Assembly: GCA_002887195.1 (NCBI GenBank) | Contig: PJAB01000727.1 | Location: forward strand, 1-21,590 | Direction: 5' to 3' | Source: Chrysochromulina parva | Taxonomy: Eukaryota; Haptophyta; Prymnesiales; Chrysochromulinaceae | DNA: 21,590 bases | Shown: in pieces, positions 1,839 to 17,182 of the stretch | How positions within the stretch are numbered: the stretch's first letter is position 1 | How the letters are laid out: every line of letters starts with the position of its first letter | Made by a program: the position numbers and the translations under genes | Notes under the pieces: model-generated | Databases searched by the model: none | What the model was told of the DNA's origin: nothing | The model's input: only the letters and a program-made list of their open reading frames with translations

Positions 1839-4800
1839 TCACTCTGCCTGGTGGAGCAGTGCGCCGCGTAGTCGATTGAGCTTCGCCTCCACTGCCGCTG
1901 CGGCCTGTCTTCGCTTCGCTAGCTCCCCCTCCATGTTGGCACGCTCGCGTTTGAGGTTGAGAGCCTGGGCTTGTGCGCGGCGCAAAGCCTCCTTGACTGC
2001 AGCGAGGTCCTGACCTCCAGCGGGGGCCGCTGATGCCACCAGCGGGCTCCCTCCCTCGCCACCTGCGCCACCTCGGATGGCCTTGGCCTGGTTCCGCGCA
2101 TCGCGACGCATTTCCTCTTGCACCTCAGCGCGATATTGCAGCCACTCGTCTCGTTCGCGTTGCCACTCGGCCTCGCGTCGGGACACTTCGTCATTGAGAC
2201 GCAGCAGCCTTTGTGCCTCCTTCTTCGCAATCTCTCGCCAGAGCGCCGTCACCGCTGCCGAGCCCGCAGCGGCCTTGCCGCCGCGCCCCCCGCCGCCTCC
2301 GATGGTGCTGGGGGCGAAGGACAGGGTGTTCGAGGGCGCCTCGCTTTGCGCGTCGATGGTCTCGTTGTCTGCAAAGCCTCCCTCCTCCAGCAATGCGTGC
2401 TCCATCGCCGCCGCCATGAAGGCATCGCGTTCCATCGCCGCAGCCCAATCGAATGCAACGTCGACGCCGCCCGCCGCCGTGCTCGAGGCTGCGATGCCAG
2501 CCCCATCCCCAGCGCTTGGGTCGTGCTCCGCCTCCTCGTCCACCTCCTCCTTGGCACTGCTGATGACCTCAGACGCCGCCGCCTCGGCGCTCCTGGCCCC
2601 GCTGTCCTGCTCATCAGCGGTTGCGCCGCCATGAATGCGCGATGTGAGTGCGAGGATGGCCCACGCCGCTTGCCACGCCGACTGACGCCAGACGCAGCGC
2701 AGCGACTCGTGCTCACGCCGCTCGCGCTTGATCGCGGCTAGCTGCCGTCGCACCGAGTCTTCGGCCGCGGCCGCCTCCTCCTCCTCATCGAAATCTATGC
2801 CCCGCGCCGCCTCCGTCGCCTCTGCTAGATCACAAGCCGCCGCTACCCCCATGCTCGGTGGCGCGGCGCGGGCTTTCGAAGGCGATGGGATGGCCCGGCG
2901 CAGCTCGGCGAGCTCCGCCCGAGCTCGTTCGACCTCGCCTTCGAGCTCTTCAATGGCGCGATGCTGCGGCGCAAGAGGATTCTCGTCCGTACCGCCGACG
3001 CTCTGCCGCCGCTGGCGCGCGCGCTTCTCCTCGAGAGCTGCGGTCATCGAGGCCAGCCGCTGCCGATGGTGCGCAGCCTCGCGCTCAGCCTGCTGCGTAC
3101 GCTGTGCGAGGGCGTGCGTGACACCTTCGGCCGGCAACTCGGCCTCCAGAGCCGTGCATGCGTCCTCGGCCGCCACAAGCGTTGTCTCGAGCTCCACGAG
3201 CTCGCGCCGCACGTCTGCGAGTGCGGCCTCGGCGGCAAGCGTCTCCTGCCGCTCGCGCTGCAGGGCCCCCTTCTGGCTGATGTACTCCTCGCGCTGCTTG
3301 CTGCTCGTGCTTGCGCTGCCGGCGTTCACCTGCTGGCGTACCGCCTGCAGCGCGCCCTCAGCCTCCTGGAACAACACTTCTTTGGCGCGAATGGCGCTTA
3401 AGAGCTCTTGCTGCTGCGCCAGCTGTCCCGCGCGCTCCGCCTCGAGACGGTCTGCGCGCGCGCGCCACTTGATGCATTCGGACGCAATCACCGCGCCCGC
3501 CGCCGCCGCCGCCGCCGCCACGATCCGTTCCTCGGCTGCCTGGCGTGTGGCCGACAGGCCGCCTGCGGAGGGGGCATATCCGTATCCGTACAAGGAGCGA
3601 TCGTCGTCAGCGAAGCCGTGCTCCAACGAGCTGCTGGGCTCGAGTGCCTCGACGCGCTGCAGCGCAGCACGCGCCGCCGCGAGGGCACCTGTGGACCCAG
3701 AGGGACTCGGCGGCCCCCGCGAAGCACCGTTACCCGTGTGAGGCGCACAGCCGCCTCTGTCAGGGCCGCCGCTGCCCATCCCGCCGCCGCCCGGCCAGCG
3801 TGGTGTTCCTACTGACCATCCCGACGGGCTGCTCGCAGAGGATGGAGGCTCAACGCCGCCGACTCCTCTACCGCCGCCCCCACCGCTACCAAAGTGGGCG
3901 CCGGCGTGGGCGCCGCTGCCCACTACGGCGCTCTCATAGTGCGCCGTAGGCGTCTGGGCGTACCCGTGAAGCGTCGTGTTGAGCGGCGTCATCGGATACG
4001 GCGCCATCTGCGGCGACATCCCGGGGCTCAGACGCATCGGAGAGGCATGGGGCGCCTGCGCCGTGGTCGTCGCAGGCGCAGGCGCAGGCGCAGGCGCGGG
4101 GGACCAGTTCTCCGGCGAGGGCGAACCGACCATAGGCAGCACTGCTGCCGGGGCGGGGGCGGGGGCTTGCTGCGCTTGCCACGCCGCCAGCATCTGCATC
4201 TGCTCCTCCACGACATTGAGCTGACGGATAGGCTTGGCGTTGCTCTCCCGACGAGCCGCGAGGAGAGCGCCGAGCGTGCCGCCAACAACGCCGCCCGCCT
4301 TGCCACTGCCCACTACAGCGCCTGCCGCCTTGTCGCTGCCCTCTGCTGCCGTCCCAGCCTGACCCATCATGTCAATGTGTGCCGCGCTCGCCGTGCTAGG
4401 CGCGCCCGGCCGAGCGGTGCTAGGCGCACTCGGCGGTGCGCTCGGTGGCGCACTCGTCGGCGCAAGCTCTTGCGTACTCAGCATGGCGCCAAAGACAGAG
4501 CCGCTCCTGACTGCCCGCTTGTCAGCTGCAGCATCAGCTGTGGCCATCAGTGCCGGCGCCGGTGACGCGTAGCTCATGTGGCCCGCGTGGTTCGTTGGTT
4601 CGCGCTCTGGGCGAGGGAAGCGTTTGTCAGTCTGGGGCTGGCCGGTGCCCTTTACGGCGCTCGTTCGGGCGCCTTCCCGTCGGGAGCTGTGCTGCCTCTC
4701 CTCCTCCTCCTCCTCCTCCTCCAGATAAATGGAGCGATCATCATCGTCCTCCTCCTCCTCGTCCTCACTGAGCCCGCCCTGGCTGCCCTGGCTGTCCTCA

Positions 4801-11675: not shown

Positions 11676-14600
11676 TCATCGGCCGGCAGCGTTCGGCGAA
11701 CTCGGTGGTGCGTCGGTCGTACCCCACGGTGACAAGGCGGGCGCGGGCGCGGGCAAGCTCGCAGCTGGCTCGGCCGAAGCGGCCGAAGCGGCCGCCATGG
11801 CCCGTTGCGTGACGACAGCTTCGACGGTGGGTTTGCGCGGCACGAGGGGCGGCCCTCCCATTCCGTTGACCACAGCGCCGTTTGCGGGGCGCACCGGGGC
11901 TGCTCCCGCGCCGTCCTGAGCGCTCAGGGCGCTGTACGATGCGGGCGGCGTGCGCTTGGGCTGCTTCAGCGCGAGATCGAGCTTGTAATGCTTGGCCACG
12001 TCCTGCGCCTCGACAAGCTTGACTTGCTGCACAAGGTTGTCGAGGAGCTTCGCGGCCACGTGTCGGGTGCGCTCATGCCGTACGCCCAAAGTGCGCGCCA
12101 GCGCCTCGGTCACGTGCCGGTAGTAGCCTTCGGCGCTCACGTACTCCTTGGCCTTGTCGTGCGCACCGGCGAGGCGCTCCATGGCGTTGAGGGTGTCCTC
12201 GTGCTGAGGGCCGTGCACGCGCTCGGCACCATGCAGGCAGCGCTGAAGCCCCTCGATCCCCTCAGCTACACGCCCGAGCACGACCAGAGACTGCGCGTAC
12301 TCTCCGAGCGTGCGCAGCGTACTCACGTGCTCATCCCCTAGCAGCGCCTGGCGCCCCTCATAAGCCTTCCGGAAGTACTCAGCGGCCTCGTCGTGCTTCT
12401 TCTGCAGGGCGAGCACCTGCGCGAACCCATGGAGTGCCCGTAGCGTCTCTCGATCAGTCTCTCCGAGCGCGAGCATCAACCCACGGCTCGCCTGCGCGTA
12501 GTAGAGCGCCGCCGGCTCGAGCTTCCCTTGAAGGCGCAGCGCGTTGGCCAGGTTGCTCATGGTACCTAGGGTCTCCGGGTGGCGTGCGCCGTAGGCCTTC
12601 TGGTAGCCTTCGAGCGCACGCTTGAAGACGGACGCGGCGAGCGCGCGCTTGCCTTGCTCCGCGAGCACCATCCCGTACGCATCGGTCGTCTGCAGCGTGA
12701 GCGGGTGCGCGAGGCCCAGCGTGAGCTCGAGCCCCTTGAGTGCGCCGCGGTACAGCGACGCAGCATCGTCAGTGAGCCGTTGATCGGCGAGCAGCTCGGC
12801 GAGGGCGACGCTCGTACGGAGAGTGAGGGGTGACGACACTCCAAAGCCTTGCTCGTACTCGGCGAGGGCGTGCCGGTAGAGCTGCGTCGCCTCGGCAGTC
12901 CTTCCTTCCTGGGCAAGCAGCCTCGCGAGACAGCTGACCGCGGCGAGCGTCTCGGCGTTCCGAGCGCCGGAGTGCTCCTCTCGCACCGTCGCCTCATGCA
13001 CGAGGAGTGCCTCTGCCTCCGCGGGACGCCCAAGCGCCGCGAGCAACTGCGCAAGAGATCATCAGAGGTCATCAGAGGTCATCAGAGGTCATCAGAGGTC
13101 ATCCGCGGTCATCGGCGCTCATCAGCGCTCATCAGAGCTCATCAGCACACCTGCGCGAGCTCGAGTCGGAGCTCATCAGAGGTCATCAGAGGTCATCAGA
13201 GGTCATCAGTCGTCATCAGCACACCTGCGCGAGCTCGAGTCGGAGTGGCAGCGGCGTGCGCGGCCCGCGCTCTAGCTCGAGCCGACGCAGCGCCGCCGCG
13301 CCCTCAGCTGCGAGCCATTCGCGCACAGCTCTCTGCACAGCGGCAAGCGCGCCTGGAGCGAGAAGCGCGAGCGCCACCATCAGTGGCAACCAGTGGCAAT
13401 CAGTGGCAATCAGTGGTAATCAAGGCAATCAGGGCGCATCAGCGGCAAGCGCGCCTGGAGCGCCCCCCTCGAGCGCCTCGAAGCGGGCTCGCATCGCTCC
13501 TGCAGAGGCGGAGGAGGGCAGCTGGAGTCCATCGACGCTCGCGCTTCGGATGCTCTGATCGAGTTGACCCAGCGACGTCTCGAGCAGAGCGGGCAGGTCC
13601 GACCACTCATGCGTCGCAAGCTCGACGTGCACACGGCCGCCCGAGGCGAGCACCGCCGCCGCCTCGAGCACGCACTGAGCGCGGCTCAGCGCCATCGGTC
13701 CTTCAGCCGAGCGCTGCGTCGAGGCGTTGAGCGCCGTACCGGCGCCCATAATGGCAGCGCCCTCCACCCCACCGCTGCTCGCGCCGAGGCCCGACGTAGC
13801 CTGGGCGTGGCGCGGCGGGCTGACGCCACGTGGCGTGGCGGGCTTGGTCAACATGAACGGCTCGTCCGGGCGGGCCCATGCGCCTACGAGCGGGTAGCAG
13901 AAGAGCACCACCTCCTTGCACGCGGGCCGCTGCACATGGAGCTCCACGTCAGTGGCAATCAGTGGCAATCAGGGGTAATGATAGGCAATCAGGGGTAATC
14001 ATAGGCAATCCGTATTCATCAATACTCGTCAAGACTCATCAGGGCTCATTACCTGCGCATGGAGTTCCGCGGCCGATGCATGCTGCGAGGCGCAGAAACC
14101 GTCCACCCACGCGAACGCCGGCGGCGGCGCGCTCGCGGCGGCGCTCGCGGCGCGCCCAAGCCCACTCTGCGCAGCGCCGATGAGGTCGGCGATGCATGAG
14201 GAGGACGGGTAGCTGAGGAGGAGCGTCGGTCTGCCAAACAGCCTCGACGTGTCCACCTGCTCGAACAAACAGCGCGAGTGCCACAATCAGTGGCACTCAG
14301 AGGCAATCAGTGGCACTCAGAGGCACTCATCTCAGTGGTACTCGTAGGCGGTCAGTGCTCATCAGGGGTCATCAGTGGTCATTACCTGCTCGAGACGCGC
14401 GAGATCGAAGCACGCGCGCGCGAGAGAAGTGCCCGTGTGCGCGGTGAGCTGCTGCACCGTCGCGCTCAGCGGCATGCGCTCGCCGCCGCCGCACAGCTCC
14501 GCCATCGTCGTCTCCCCTGCAACACCGTGCTGCATATAGAATGTCTCGAGCGCCGCCAAAAAGGGCGCGCCGATGCCGAGCGCGGCCGTGGCACCGCCCT

Positions 14601-16980
14601 CGAAGTTGATGCTGTCGGCGCAAGCCTGCGTCACAAAGACGCCGTCCTGGGCACCCCCGCCGTCCTGGGCGCGCCCCTCGGGCTCCTTCGGCGCCGTCTT
14701 GGGCATGAGCGCGCTCGGCCCCATCAGCTGATTACAGTCCGCCGAGGGCTGCGAGCGTCGTGGCGACGGTAAGATGGGTCCCCTCGCCGCCTCCGCCGCC
14801 TGCTGCTCGAGCTTCGTCAACAGCCGCATGGCCGCCAGAAGCGCCTCCTCATCCACAGGGAGCAGCGGCGGCGCGGGCTGCGGCGGCAACGGCTGCGGCG
14901 GCAACGGGCCCGCCTCGGAGGGCTGCGGTGCCGGCGGCATGATGTACTCGACAGATGGCTGCGTGGACAGCGCTGTACCGGGCGCCGACGCCTGTCCTGT
15001 CCCAGTAAGCATGAGTGGCAGCGCTGTACCGGGCACCGCCGGCGGGATGGCAAGCCTCCCTATCCCCCCTGCCGACGACGCGCGGGCCGCCGCCCCCGAT
15101 GGCGGGCGCTGCCCCGGGCTCATTGGCACGCCTGCGAGCTTCAGCGACGTCAAACGCTCCGCGGCATCGAGAGCGATCGCCTCGGCCGCCGCCGCCGCTG
15201 CGGCTCGGCTCGTCGGGACGCAGCTGTGATTGAGCTGTGAAGACGCGAGCTGTGAAGGCGCGGCGCGCTTGGGCGGCGAGGGCGGCGCCTGAGGCGGCGC
15301 CGCGTGCTCTGCGGGTGGCGGCGGCGGCGGCGGCGCGTCGGCCGCGGGTATGGTGACCGAGTCCGCGACCCCTGATGGCGCCGTCCTGGGCAGTCCGGAG
15401 GGCGCCGTCCTGGGCCGTGGCTGCTCCCAAGGCAGCGCCGTCTTGGGCTTGCCCTTCTCGCGGTACACCACCTTCTCGACCTCGACGTACACGGGCTTAG
15501 GGACCTCCTTGATGACCTCCTTGACCTTGATGACCTGCTTGATGACCTCAACCTCCTTGATGATGGGGTTCGCCAGGTAGCTCTCCTCCATCGCCTTGAG
15601 AGCCACCGCCTGCTCACGCTGCGCCTTCTCGGCCGCCGCCGCGAGGTCCGCCGCCGCACGCTCCGCCGCCGCCTGCAGCTCGCGCTGCGCCTTAGCACGC
15701 TCGGCCTGCACCGCGTCCTCCATCGCACGCTTGGAGCGACCAAGCTCGTCGCGGATGGCCTCGGCCTCCTGCGCCACCCTCTCGAGACGCGCATGCAGCT
15801 CGCCCTTCTCCGCCGCAATGGCCTCGGCCGCCTCCACCTTCGCTCGCGCGATCGCGTCCGCGATCTCGCGCTGCGAACGCTGCCTCTCCTCTGCGAGAGC
15901 TCTCTCCGACCGCGTCGCCGCCGCCGCAAGGGCCGCATCGCGCTCCGCCTTCGCCCGCGACAGCGCGTCTTCGAGCGCCGTGGCCGCATGGGTCGCGGCG
16001 AGCCGGAGCGCCTTCTCCTTCTCCTCCCTCGCGGCTTCGAAGGCCTCATCGTGGGCCACAGTGGCGGCGGCCGCACACTCCGCCTCGATGCGCAGCTCGG
16101 ATTGCTTCAGTCCCTCCTTGGCGGCGACCACGTCGGCGAGGAGCGTACGGACCTCGGACTGCAGCCGAGAGATCTGGCCCTCGAGCCGCTTCTGGTCCAG
16201 CCGCGACGAGCGCTGCAGCTCTTCGGGCATGCGGCGCAGCTCCTCGCGCAGCACGGCATTCTCAGCGGCCATTCGCTCCGCGCGCTGCTCGGCGCTGCCG
16301 CCGGGTCGTGGCTCGCCGCCGCCGCCGCTGCTCGCCGCGGTCGCGGCCGGGTCGAGACGCCACCGAAAGTCCGGATCCGGCCCCGTGCGCACCTGCGGCG
16401 CCGCAAGCCCACTGCCGTTGAGCGCATCGCGGTGGCTCATCGACGCGCCCGAACTCGAGCGCCACATATGCTCAGCGCCCATCGGAGCGCCAGCGGGAGC
16501 GCCAGCGGGAGCCATCAAGGACTGCTGCGAGCGGCTCAGGGCCGATGGCCCCGGGCTCTGCGGCCGATTATTGTACACGGCCCTCACGGCTGAGCCGGCA
16601 GCGATCGGACCTTGCGGGTAGTAGCCCGGCAACGGCGGACCAGCGGCGGCCGGACCCTGCTGGTAATAGCCCGGCGGTGGCGGATAGCCCATCGGCATCT
16701 GCTGCTGTGAATAGCCACAGCTGCTGTCGGGCGCGGCGCTGCCTAGCACTGGCGCTGGACGGGCGCCCACCATTTGCGTCACACGAAGCGAGAGGGAGCG
16801 CTCAGCAGCAGCCCTCCGTTCAATTTCATTCGGGTTCACCATTTGATGATGAACAAGAGTATGCGGCGGCGGCGGCGGCTGCTGCCGACGCACTGCGGAG
16901 GCGTGTGCTTGTGGGTTCGCTGCTGGAGCCTGCTGAACAAGAGTAGGGTCGGCCCACGCCCGCAGCGGTCTCGCTTCCAT
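11676..16980 (-). CDS. Five-exon gene: coiled-coil / Val-repeat / TIR-like / kinesin-light-chain-type TPR protein
   Basis: Proposed exons, in transcript order: 16980-14386, 14256-14053, 13929-13455, 13352-13225 and 13046-11676. Joined they give one frame of about 1590 residues; each intron gives a stop within about eight codons if unspliced. The start at 16980 has a strong context (CCGCCATGG). N-terminal ~1-230 is Pro/Gln-rich, then a coiled coil at ~230-465. A Val/Lys/Glu segment (IIKEVEVIKQVIKVKEVIKE) at ~470-510 resembles alveolin-type repeats, and a disordered part follows. From ~800 to 1110 the order of motifs (TLLLSYPSS, AFAWVDGF.ASQH, LSRAQCVLE) follows the TIR-like domain of algal TPR proteins (usual forms FVSHAW, FWVD, WCLWE). 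The Glu at ~1022 persists but neighbouring residues are changed. About nine 42-residue TPRs run from ~1125 to 1520 (LLAALGRPAEAEALL, LARLLAQEGRTAEATQLY, LANALRLQGKLEPAALYY). It probably acts as a protein-interaction scaffold; enzyme activity is doubtful. Confidence 0.75.
13047..13224 (-). repeat. Intron 4 (178 bp), minisatellite intron with an internal duplicated donor
   Basis: Coding-strand donor CTCGCGCAG|GTGTGCTGATG and acceptor CTCTTGCGCAG|TTGCTCGCGG. The interior holds two tracts of 10-mers (ATGACCTCTG repeated, also ATGAGCGCTG, ATGACCGCGG). A second copy of the exon end plus donor lies between them. The 33-base copies are at 13139-13171 and 13213-13245 on the plus strand, 74 bp apart. 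Phase 0. Splicing joins PLRLELAQ to LLAALGRPAEAEALL, which restores the first TPR helix pair and strongly supports the junction. Confidence 0.8.
13353..13454 (-). repeat. Intron 3 (102 bp), probable GC-AG minisatellite intron
   Basis: A perfect 23-base direct repeat (plus-strand copies 13338-13360 and 13440-13462, beginning CAGCGGCAAGCGCGCC) brackets about five 10-mers (ATTGCCACTG and variants). No GT donor exists in the repeat. CTCCAG|GCGCGC at the donor side and CTCCAG|GCGCGC at the acceptor side give a GC-AG intron in phase 1. The interval is 102 bp, a multiple of three, but it contains an in-frame TGA, so it must be removed. Removing any 102-base window within the repeat gives the same mRNA. 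Confidence 0.7.
13930..14052 (-). repeat. Intron 2 (123 bp), 10-bp minisatellite intron
   Basis: Coding-strand donor GAACTCCATGCGCAG|GTAATGAGCC and acceptor GAGCTCCATGTGCAG|CGGCCC. The 15 bases before each splice point match except for two positions. Between them run about ten consecutive 10-mers (ATGAGTCTTG, ATTGCCTATG, ATTACCCCTG, ATTGCCACTG twice). Phase 0. Splicing removes a stop six codons into the intron and joins ASAAELHAQ to RPACKEVV. Confidence 0.8.
14257..14385 (-). repeat. Intron 1 (129 bp), 10-bp minisatellite intron
   Basis: On the coding (minus) strand the donor is CTCGAGCAG|GTAATGACC and the acceptor TTCGAGCAG|GTGGAC. The interior is mostly units of a degenerate 10-mer (ATGACCACTG, ATGACCCCTG, ATTGCCTCTG, AGTGCCACTG). 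After the last unit comes a module reading CACTGATTGTGGCACTC, then a pyrimidine-leaning stretch. CGAGCAGGT occurs at both ends, so splice position is defined by the GT that follows the donor. Phase 0 on both sides. Reading through gives a stop after seven codons. Confidence 0.8.
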
Positions 16981-17182
16981 GGCGGTTGGGTCGCCTATGT
17001 CGAGATGTGTGAATGAATAGGCCGTGAATGTCAGGTAGATCATTTGAGCATTTGAGAGTCAGTGAAACAGGGATCCCGTTCGGCACTTCCACCGTAGCAC
17101 TGGTTGTCGCGTCTGTTGTGTTAACGTTCACACATACCGTATTCGAGCCACGTGGGGCCGACGTCTTGGAGGTACCGTACAC
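16981..17182. promoter_or_regulatory. Short divergent spacer, probable shared promoter of the TIR-like/TPR and PPR-like genes
   Basis: Only 202 bases separate the two start codons, so the region must carry both promoters and both 5' UTRs. It contains a direct repeat CATTTGAG (17040-17047 and 17050-17057) and is more AT-rich than its surroundings. No TATA box was assigned. Confidence 0.45.

Follow-up and report, generated by a model that had tools for sequence, protein, structure and literature searches.

A candidate family of introner-like introns with a 10-bp minisatellite body in the haptophyte Chrysochromulina parva

A stretch of 21,590 nucleotides from Chrysochromulina parva (assembly GCA_002887195.1, contig PJAB01000727.1, positions 1 to 21,590; hereafter the window) carries on its minus strand a gene with four short introns, each with a body of degenerate 10-bp repeats of unit CTGATKRCCN laid end to end. 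Arrays of this kind recur throughout the genome, lie mostly on the coding strand of genes, often end in a common 20-base cassette, and in many cases stand between two copies of a short exon sequence. On balance I favour the interpretation that they form an introner-like family, hereafter called minisatellite introners, in which a minisatellite body has been copied into staggered breaks in exons. The target copies and the two splice layouts described below, neither of which had been seen in the first-pass annotation of this DNA, hold most of the mechanistic information.

Four array introns in one gene

The host gene and its introns are arranged as follows.

11676..17043, minus strand: host gene, five exons; homologues have TPR domains; the start is taken to be that of the open reading frame.
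14257..14385, minus strand: intron 1, 129 bp, GT-AG, 10-bp repeat body, layout B (defined below); from Tandem Repeats Finder and the excised frame.
13930..14052, minus strand: intron 2, 123 bp, GT-AG, 10-bp repeat body; from Tandem Repeats Finder and the excised frame.
13353..13454, minus strand: intron 3, 102 bp when read as GC-AG, borders ambiguous within a duplicated target; from the sequence and the excised frame.
13047..13224, minus strand: intron 4, 178 bp, GT-AG, the most regular array, with an internal tandem copy of exon border and array.

The four intervals and their lengths (129, 123, 102 and 178 bp) had been proposed in the first-pass annotation and are confirmed on the minus strand, with borders GT-AG, GT-AG, GC-AG and GT-AG. 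Excision of all four leaves a single open frame of 1612 codons, stop included, and the spliced protein aligns with the uninterrupted homologues P0010 (52% identity) and P0012 (45%) without gaps at junctions 1, 3 and 4; junction 2 falls within a variable stretch with gaps. Because excision gives one frame that aligns to uninterrupted homologues, the introns are real by anatomy, and I infer their splicing in the cell from the sequence. The borders of intron 3 are ambiguous because an identical 23-bp sequence stands at both ends.

Tandem Repeats Finder reports period-10 arrays in four of four introns. The earlier claim that one 10-bp repeat builds them all therefore stands as regards the presence of arrays, but has to be qualified for introns 1 to 3, which are more degenerate: the perfect three-unit pattern CTGATN5CTGATN5CTGAT gives six overlapping matches in the window, all of them in intron 4, where 100 shuffles lead one to expect none. 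The accompanying claim, that the repeat is absent from exons and from the other genes of the window, holds for this perfect pattern, which has no match outside intron 4. The arithmetic by which stop codons were said to recur in every frame is right, 10 being 1 modulo 3 and the units containing TGA. With CTGAT fitting the motif CTRAY and TGA falling in rotating frames, the units are consistent with a role as putative branch points and nonsense signals. A special RNA hairpin is disfavoured, since three of the four introns fold no better than shuffled sequences (intron 1 has a z of -2.5).

Two existing gene models, one from C. parva (P0011) and one from C. tobinii (P0013), were rejected as splice evidence: both skip part of the window between 13047 and 14385 and end at intron 3. 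The introns of this interval are probably wrong or missing in the public annotation behind these models.

Exon sequence duplicated around the introns

Copies of exon sequence were found at or near the borders of the window introns.

14386..14393, minus strand: intron 1, upstream target copy TCGAGCAG, 8 bp, weak alone; read from the sequence and outside the scan counts given below.
14257..14264, minus strand: intron 1, downstream target copy TCGAGCAG, ending in the 3' splice site; read from the sequence.
14053..14068, minus strand: intron 2, upstream target copy GGAACTCCATGCGCAG, two mismatches to the other copy; flank scans, score 10.
13930..13945, minus strand: intron 2, downstream target copy GGAGCTCCATGTGCAG, which supplies the AG; flank scans.
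13440..13462, minus strand: intron 3, upstream copy of the exact 23-bp target CGCTCCAGGCGCGCTTGCCGCTG, 23 of 23 identical; flank scan.
13338..13360, minus strand: intron 3, downstream copy of the exact 23-bp target CGCTCCAGGCGCGCTTGCCGCTG; flank scan.
13213..13245, minus strand: first copy of a 33-bp stretch made up of the exon border and the opening bases of intron 4; from a 74-bp unit in Tandem Repeats Finder and the sequence.
13139..13171, minus strand: second copy of this 33-bp border inside intron 4, 74 bp further; from the same 74-bp unit and the sequence.

The duplication is clear for introns 2 (16 bp, layout B) and 3 (23 bp, exact, including the border) and weak for intron 1 (8 bp), and intron 4 holds an internal copy of its own exon border.

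A genome-wide family of arrays on the coding strand

The assembly searched comprises 45.07 Mb in 2199 contigs. The perfect three-unit pattern has 6564 matches, against 6 for the reversed control, and the four-unit pattern 3996, against 4; from the difference between the two counts, runs with three or more perfect units number at least 2568. The genome-wide search that the first-pass annotation had called for thus returns array matches by the thousand. Local statistics were obtained on the window together with fetched loci (L numbers), which were picked by array matches, mostly in contig order; of ten 10-kb stretches chosen blind to arrays, three have arrays in a strict scan. In the window and fetched DNA, neighbouring CTGAT words lie exactly 10 bases apart in 425 cases, while the control word TAGTC yields 2 pairs within 35 bases in total. 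The commonest units are CTGATGACCT (128/425), CTGATGGCCT (64/425) and CTGATGACCA (44/425).

A codon score trained on the long frames of the sample assigns 63 of 69 arrays to the coding strand and 4 to the opposite one, with 2 undecided. A general minisatellite unrelated to introns, the alternative that the first-pass annotation had itself put forward, is contradicted in the sampled DNA: strand, coding context and the copies at exon borders all disfavour a repeat that is independent of genes. Local spread within a gene was likewise rejected, as arrays of the same locus are not significantly more alike in their units than arrays of different loci (the observed value is attained in 218 of 2000 permutations). 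As for a viral origin, one 25-base array pattern, the single pattern used, has no exact match in a collection of viral contigs.

A few neighbouring repeats deserve mention. Locus L045 has arrays of an 11-bp unit similar to the 10-bp one (TGCTGATCGAT and GATTGCATGCT, at 4038-4139 and 4617-4648), and a second recurrent motif, GCATGCAAGTGCTCA, lies beside the arrays in both L042 and L008. In L036/L079 (G000:C7, near 7877) an apparent intron consists of degenerate telomere-like CCCTAA repeats and ends in CCCTAG|G; telomere-repeat introns were rejected as a second family, since the end pattern has only 2 exact matches in the genome and its control 1. In the window itself, a 116-bp unit present twice at 97% (387-619, Tandem Repeats Finder) is unrelated to the introns.

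A common 3' cassette and two complementary splice layouts

Many array introns end in or near a 20-base cassette, CTGATTGCCTCCCTCATCAG. Its pattern, CTGATN7CTCATCAG, has 1532 matches in the genome, compared with none for the reversed pattern and 15 when the spacing is one base shorter. Slippage taking place gene by gene would not yield the same 20 bases, and the cassette introns were therefore likely copied from a common source. The bases that follow the 68 cassettes of the fetched DNA (at most 3 mismatches) are GT in 40 cases and GC in 18.

Two arrangements of splice sites can be distinguished. In layout A, GT or GC stands at the start of the upstream target copy and TCATCAG closes the insert; the stretch from target copy to array varies, and no fixed 5' end was seen. 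In layout B, which is the one seen in the window, the insert opens with GT, the target copy ends in AG, and there is no cassette. Family likeness at the borders is uneven: the array and the 3' cassette are widely common, similarity at the 5' border is irregular, and layout B has no cassette. In three loci (L078, L049 and L058), blocks of target, array and cassette stand in tandem, with three or four cassette ends 61-80 bp apart.

Direct repeats flanking the arrays

Exon sequence at opposite ends of an intron is expected of gain at a staggered break, and it was found above control level in each of three scans, all of them controlled by swapping flanks between arrays. Depending on the scan, some two-fifths to one half of the arrays have flanking direct repeats, most of which are exon sequence. 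Direct repeats with a score of at least 12 flank 24 of 47 arrays (those with full flanks among 49), against 3 of 235 swapped flanks; 17 of the 24, 14-48 bp long, are free of array-unit letters. When the scan was anchored on the cassette, the start of the downstream sequence was repeated upstream in 29 of 68 cases (L012 was left out, being covered by L050), against 8 of 333 with swapped flanks. A scan of 76 arrays at score 10, from which arrays less than 150 bases from a locus end were left out, gave 18 cases of layout A (control 7/748), 19 of layout B (control 16/751) and 30 of either.

From a set of 29, 23 clean cases were retained; the 6 left out had a target copy that contained a repeat unit or measured 50 bases or more, and include L064, which offers a good example with a PAS domain. 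Target copies in the clean set measure 10-45 bp, with a median of 23; the introns span 45-230 bp, and 20 of 23 fall within 66-116. The longer the target copy, the shorter the insert tends to be (Spearman -0.47, p 0.024), which fits a lower limit on intron length.

Coding sequence continues across many arrays

The arrays appear to be inserted into exons, in coding orientation for 63 of 69 by the codon score. Precise excision restores frames in many cases, and in several loci it joins long frames across the junction, such as 1076 and 1474 bases in L010 and 1212 and 1485 bases in L014. In five of eight protein pieces a Pfam match extends across the junction predicted: HEAT in L032, RRM in L038, the poly(A) polymerase head domain in L067, Fn3-like in L056 and TPR in L075. 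The Pfam listing for L032, whose protein I take from a reading of its sequence to be a transportin, comprises HEAT and importin-beta-like repeats. The junction of L051 lies just outside its enoyl-CoA hydratase match, the Pfam matches shown for the PAS protein of L064 cover just the first of its two PAS stretches, and the piece of L010 given to Pfam was without its junction.

Presence and absence in relatives

The intron of L010, which has exact 13-bp target copies, was compared with 61 homologous proteins. Its position is reached by 48 of them, and 47 of these continue in alignment beyond it; in a few, insertions or a change of frame lie nearby. The exception, P0037, has the intron; its match covers 28% of the query at 100% identity and ends within the array, where a single residue is changed. 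Protein P0028 (82% identical) runs through the site and later into an unrelated tail, which suggests that it is an unspliced genomic frame; some of the other homologues may be spliced models or transcripts. The L010 intron thus appears, on this protein comparison, to be specific to C. parva or its nearest kin.

For the window gene, the best named matches of the spliced protein are eukprot jgi/Chrpa1 'Chrysochromulina_OHIO_Genome' (100% over 28% of the query), a label that presumably stands for C. parva, and Chrysochromulina tobinii (94% over 29%). Two proteins read into intron 1: P0014 (97%) ends in EQVMTTDDP, the translation of the first bases of that intron, and P0015 (89%) has another ending, EQVIMSTAGPDVH, possibly translated from such units. 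Since both read into it, intron 1 seems to be common to near relatives.

A possible pathway and the points against it

The pathway that I favour would run as follows. A (CTGATKRCCN)n stretch, often ending in the cassette, would be copied into a staggered break within an exon, and fill-in of the overhangs would duplicate some 10-45 bp of exon on both sides; existing arrays would be what is copied, and break, donor and enzyme are all putative. Clean splicing would then be possible, one splice site coming from the duplicated exon copy and the other from the insert, and removal of the intron would restore the exon. The CTGAT of each unit fits a branch-point motif and might be used as such. Units, and whole blocks of target and insert, would later multiply in tandem. 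The introner-like family that the first-pass annotation had proposed is supported by the genome-wide matches, by the 63 of 69 arrays on the coding strand, by target copies in excess of the swapped control, and by absence in homologues at one site.

Several observations weigh against this pathway. In reverse complement the end TCATCAG reads CTGATGA, with which the commonest unit begins, and this could mean a transposon-like inverted repeat. Seven of the 24 flanking repeats hold array-unit letters, and in some of the 30 cases of the 76-array scan, both rows of L004 among them, the match is between one repeat unit and another. At the thresholds used, half or more of the arrays have no target copy, except in the 47-array scan, where 23 of 47 are without one. 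Exact excision scores best as coding sequence in no more than 15 of 29 cases, against 7 for each of the two shifted frames, in a set that includes internal tandem copies. Presence and absence were compared at a single site, L010, and the controls were swapped flanks rather than ordinary introns of the same genome. This last point matters in the light of a 2025 paper, which, in the excerpt used here, describes 213 introns, all of them with direct repeats of 4-30 bp at their borders or close by (PMC11782384); in Drosophila, by the part of the source consulted, short flanking repeats are equally frequent at gained and at conserved introns (PMC3443670).

Alternative explanations

The main rival of copying into staggered breaks is a transposase acting on short inverted repeats: the introns would be conventional DNA-transposon introners, non-autonomous elements bounded by short terminal inverted repeats (CTGATGA...TCATCAG) and dependent on a transposase for their movement, with a minisatellite as body by mere chance. 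I hold this to be unlikely. The conserved 3' end with its 1532 matches, the complementarity of TCATCAG and CTGATGA, and the target copies of the cassette-anchored scan are in its favour, yet the commonest units begin with CTGATGA anyway. A given transposase usually makes target duplications of one length, and the variable length found here therefore speaks against one, the copies being 10-45 bp in the 23 clean cases and not 3-9 bp of a single length, as expected of a DNA-transposon introner; so does the variable stretch from target to array in layout A, with no fixed 5' end. Introner families with target-site duplications of 3-9 bp have been described, including one with 4 bp in Chrysochromulina sp. 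TARA_PON_109_MAG_00232, but that family is said, in the section of the paper used here, to be without terminal inverted repeats (PMC9860276). Quite improbable, in my estimate, is that the introns are old and of the ordinary kind and that a minisatellite expanded within them at a later time. Minisatellites grow by slippage, and both the tandem copies of whole intron blocks (L049, L058, L078) and the lack of a target copy in about half or more of the arrays agree with such a history, which leaves unexplained the common cassette, the duplicated exon borders and the 47 of 48 homologues that read through the L010 site.

Tandem duplication of an exon piece with a cryptic splice site, the array having grown inside the resulting intron, would follow a documented route (PMC3443670, as excerpted). 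In L042 (1739-1789) the exon target indeed contains CTGATGACGA, and the neighbouring array uses CTGATGACGA as its unit. In the clean cases, however, the intron body is not an exon copy: the target copy falls short of the intron's length, exon-derived sequence making up no more than the first 10-45 bp, and the remainder ends in the genome-wide cassette, which makes this explanation very improbable. Target-primed insertions leave one fixed and one variable end and variable duplications. Retroposition of a repeat-bearing RNA by target-primed reverse transcription would thus account for the fixed and the variable end and for the variable target duplications observed, but layout B has no fixed 3' end, and I give this possibility hardly any weight.

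Relation to known systems

The papers compared here are considered in excerpt. Introners are already known, also in Chrysochromulina; the present family stands out by its minisatellite body and its target copies of 10-45 bp. Like the introners of Gozashti et al. (2022, PMC9860276), the present introns are similar to one another in up to thousands of copies and have target duplications, with one splice site taken from the target copy and the other from the insert; the hosts in that survey are aquatic protists, Chrysochromulina sp. being listed. The present introns differ in their 10-bp minisatellite body and in target copies of 10-45 bp, where the survey gives 3-9 bp for earlier families; it also filtered out low-complexity families, microsatellite expansion being a possible explanation for them.

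The neointrons of Daphnia (PMC4202315) also have direct repeats of exon sequence at opposite ends, attributed to staggered double-strand breaks, but these measure 4-12 bp, and the excerpt mentions no cassette common to more than 1000 places. The introner elements of Amoebophrya (PMC7789003) are repeated introns with direct repeats at their borders as well; they are described there with 8-20 nt inverted repeats forming hairpins and direct repeats of 3-5 nt, whereas three of the four window introns fold like shuffled sequences. In gain by tandem genomic duplication (PMC3443670) duplicated exon sequence provides the splice sites, as it does here, but here a repeat common throughout the genome sits between the copies. 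For C. tobinii, the genome paper reports an average of one intron per gene, and its sole mention of introns in the text consulted is silent on repeats (PMC4580454). In the literature on introners and on intron gain from minisatellites, a search whose scope leaves most subscription journals outside, none of the titles and abstract openings listed describes minisatellite introners.

Implications

Tentatively, and as something possible rather than probable, the minisatellite may be a mobile maker of introns that needs no transposase: tracts from existing introns would be patched into staggered exon breaks, a fill-in of 10-45 bases would supply the missing splice site, and a repair pathway together with a 10-bp repeat would have made thousands of introns in one alga. 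Short runs of a 10-letter repeat seem to have been copied into many genes and to be removed from them as introns, which points to a little-examined route to new introns. The gain of introns in large numbers is an open question. The present family, with its thousands of matches in the genome, its exact target copies at some insertions and its pair of complementary splice layouts, bears directly on it, and the role of break repair in intron gain becomes testable through the comparison of strains. Minisatellite introners belong to the class of sequence that the main published survey set aside as low complexity, and the number of introners in protists rich in repeats may have been underestimated.
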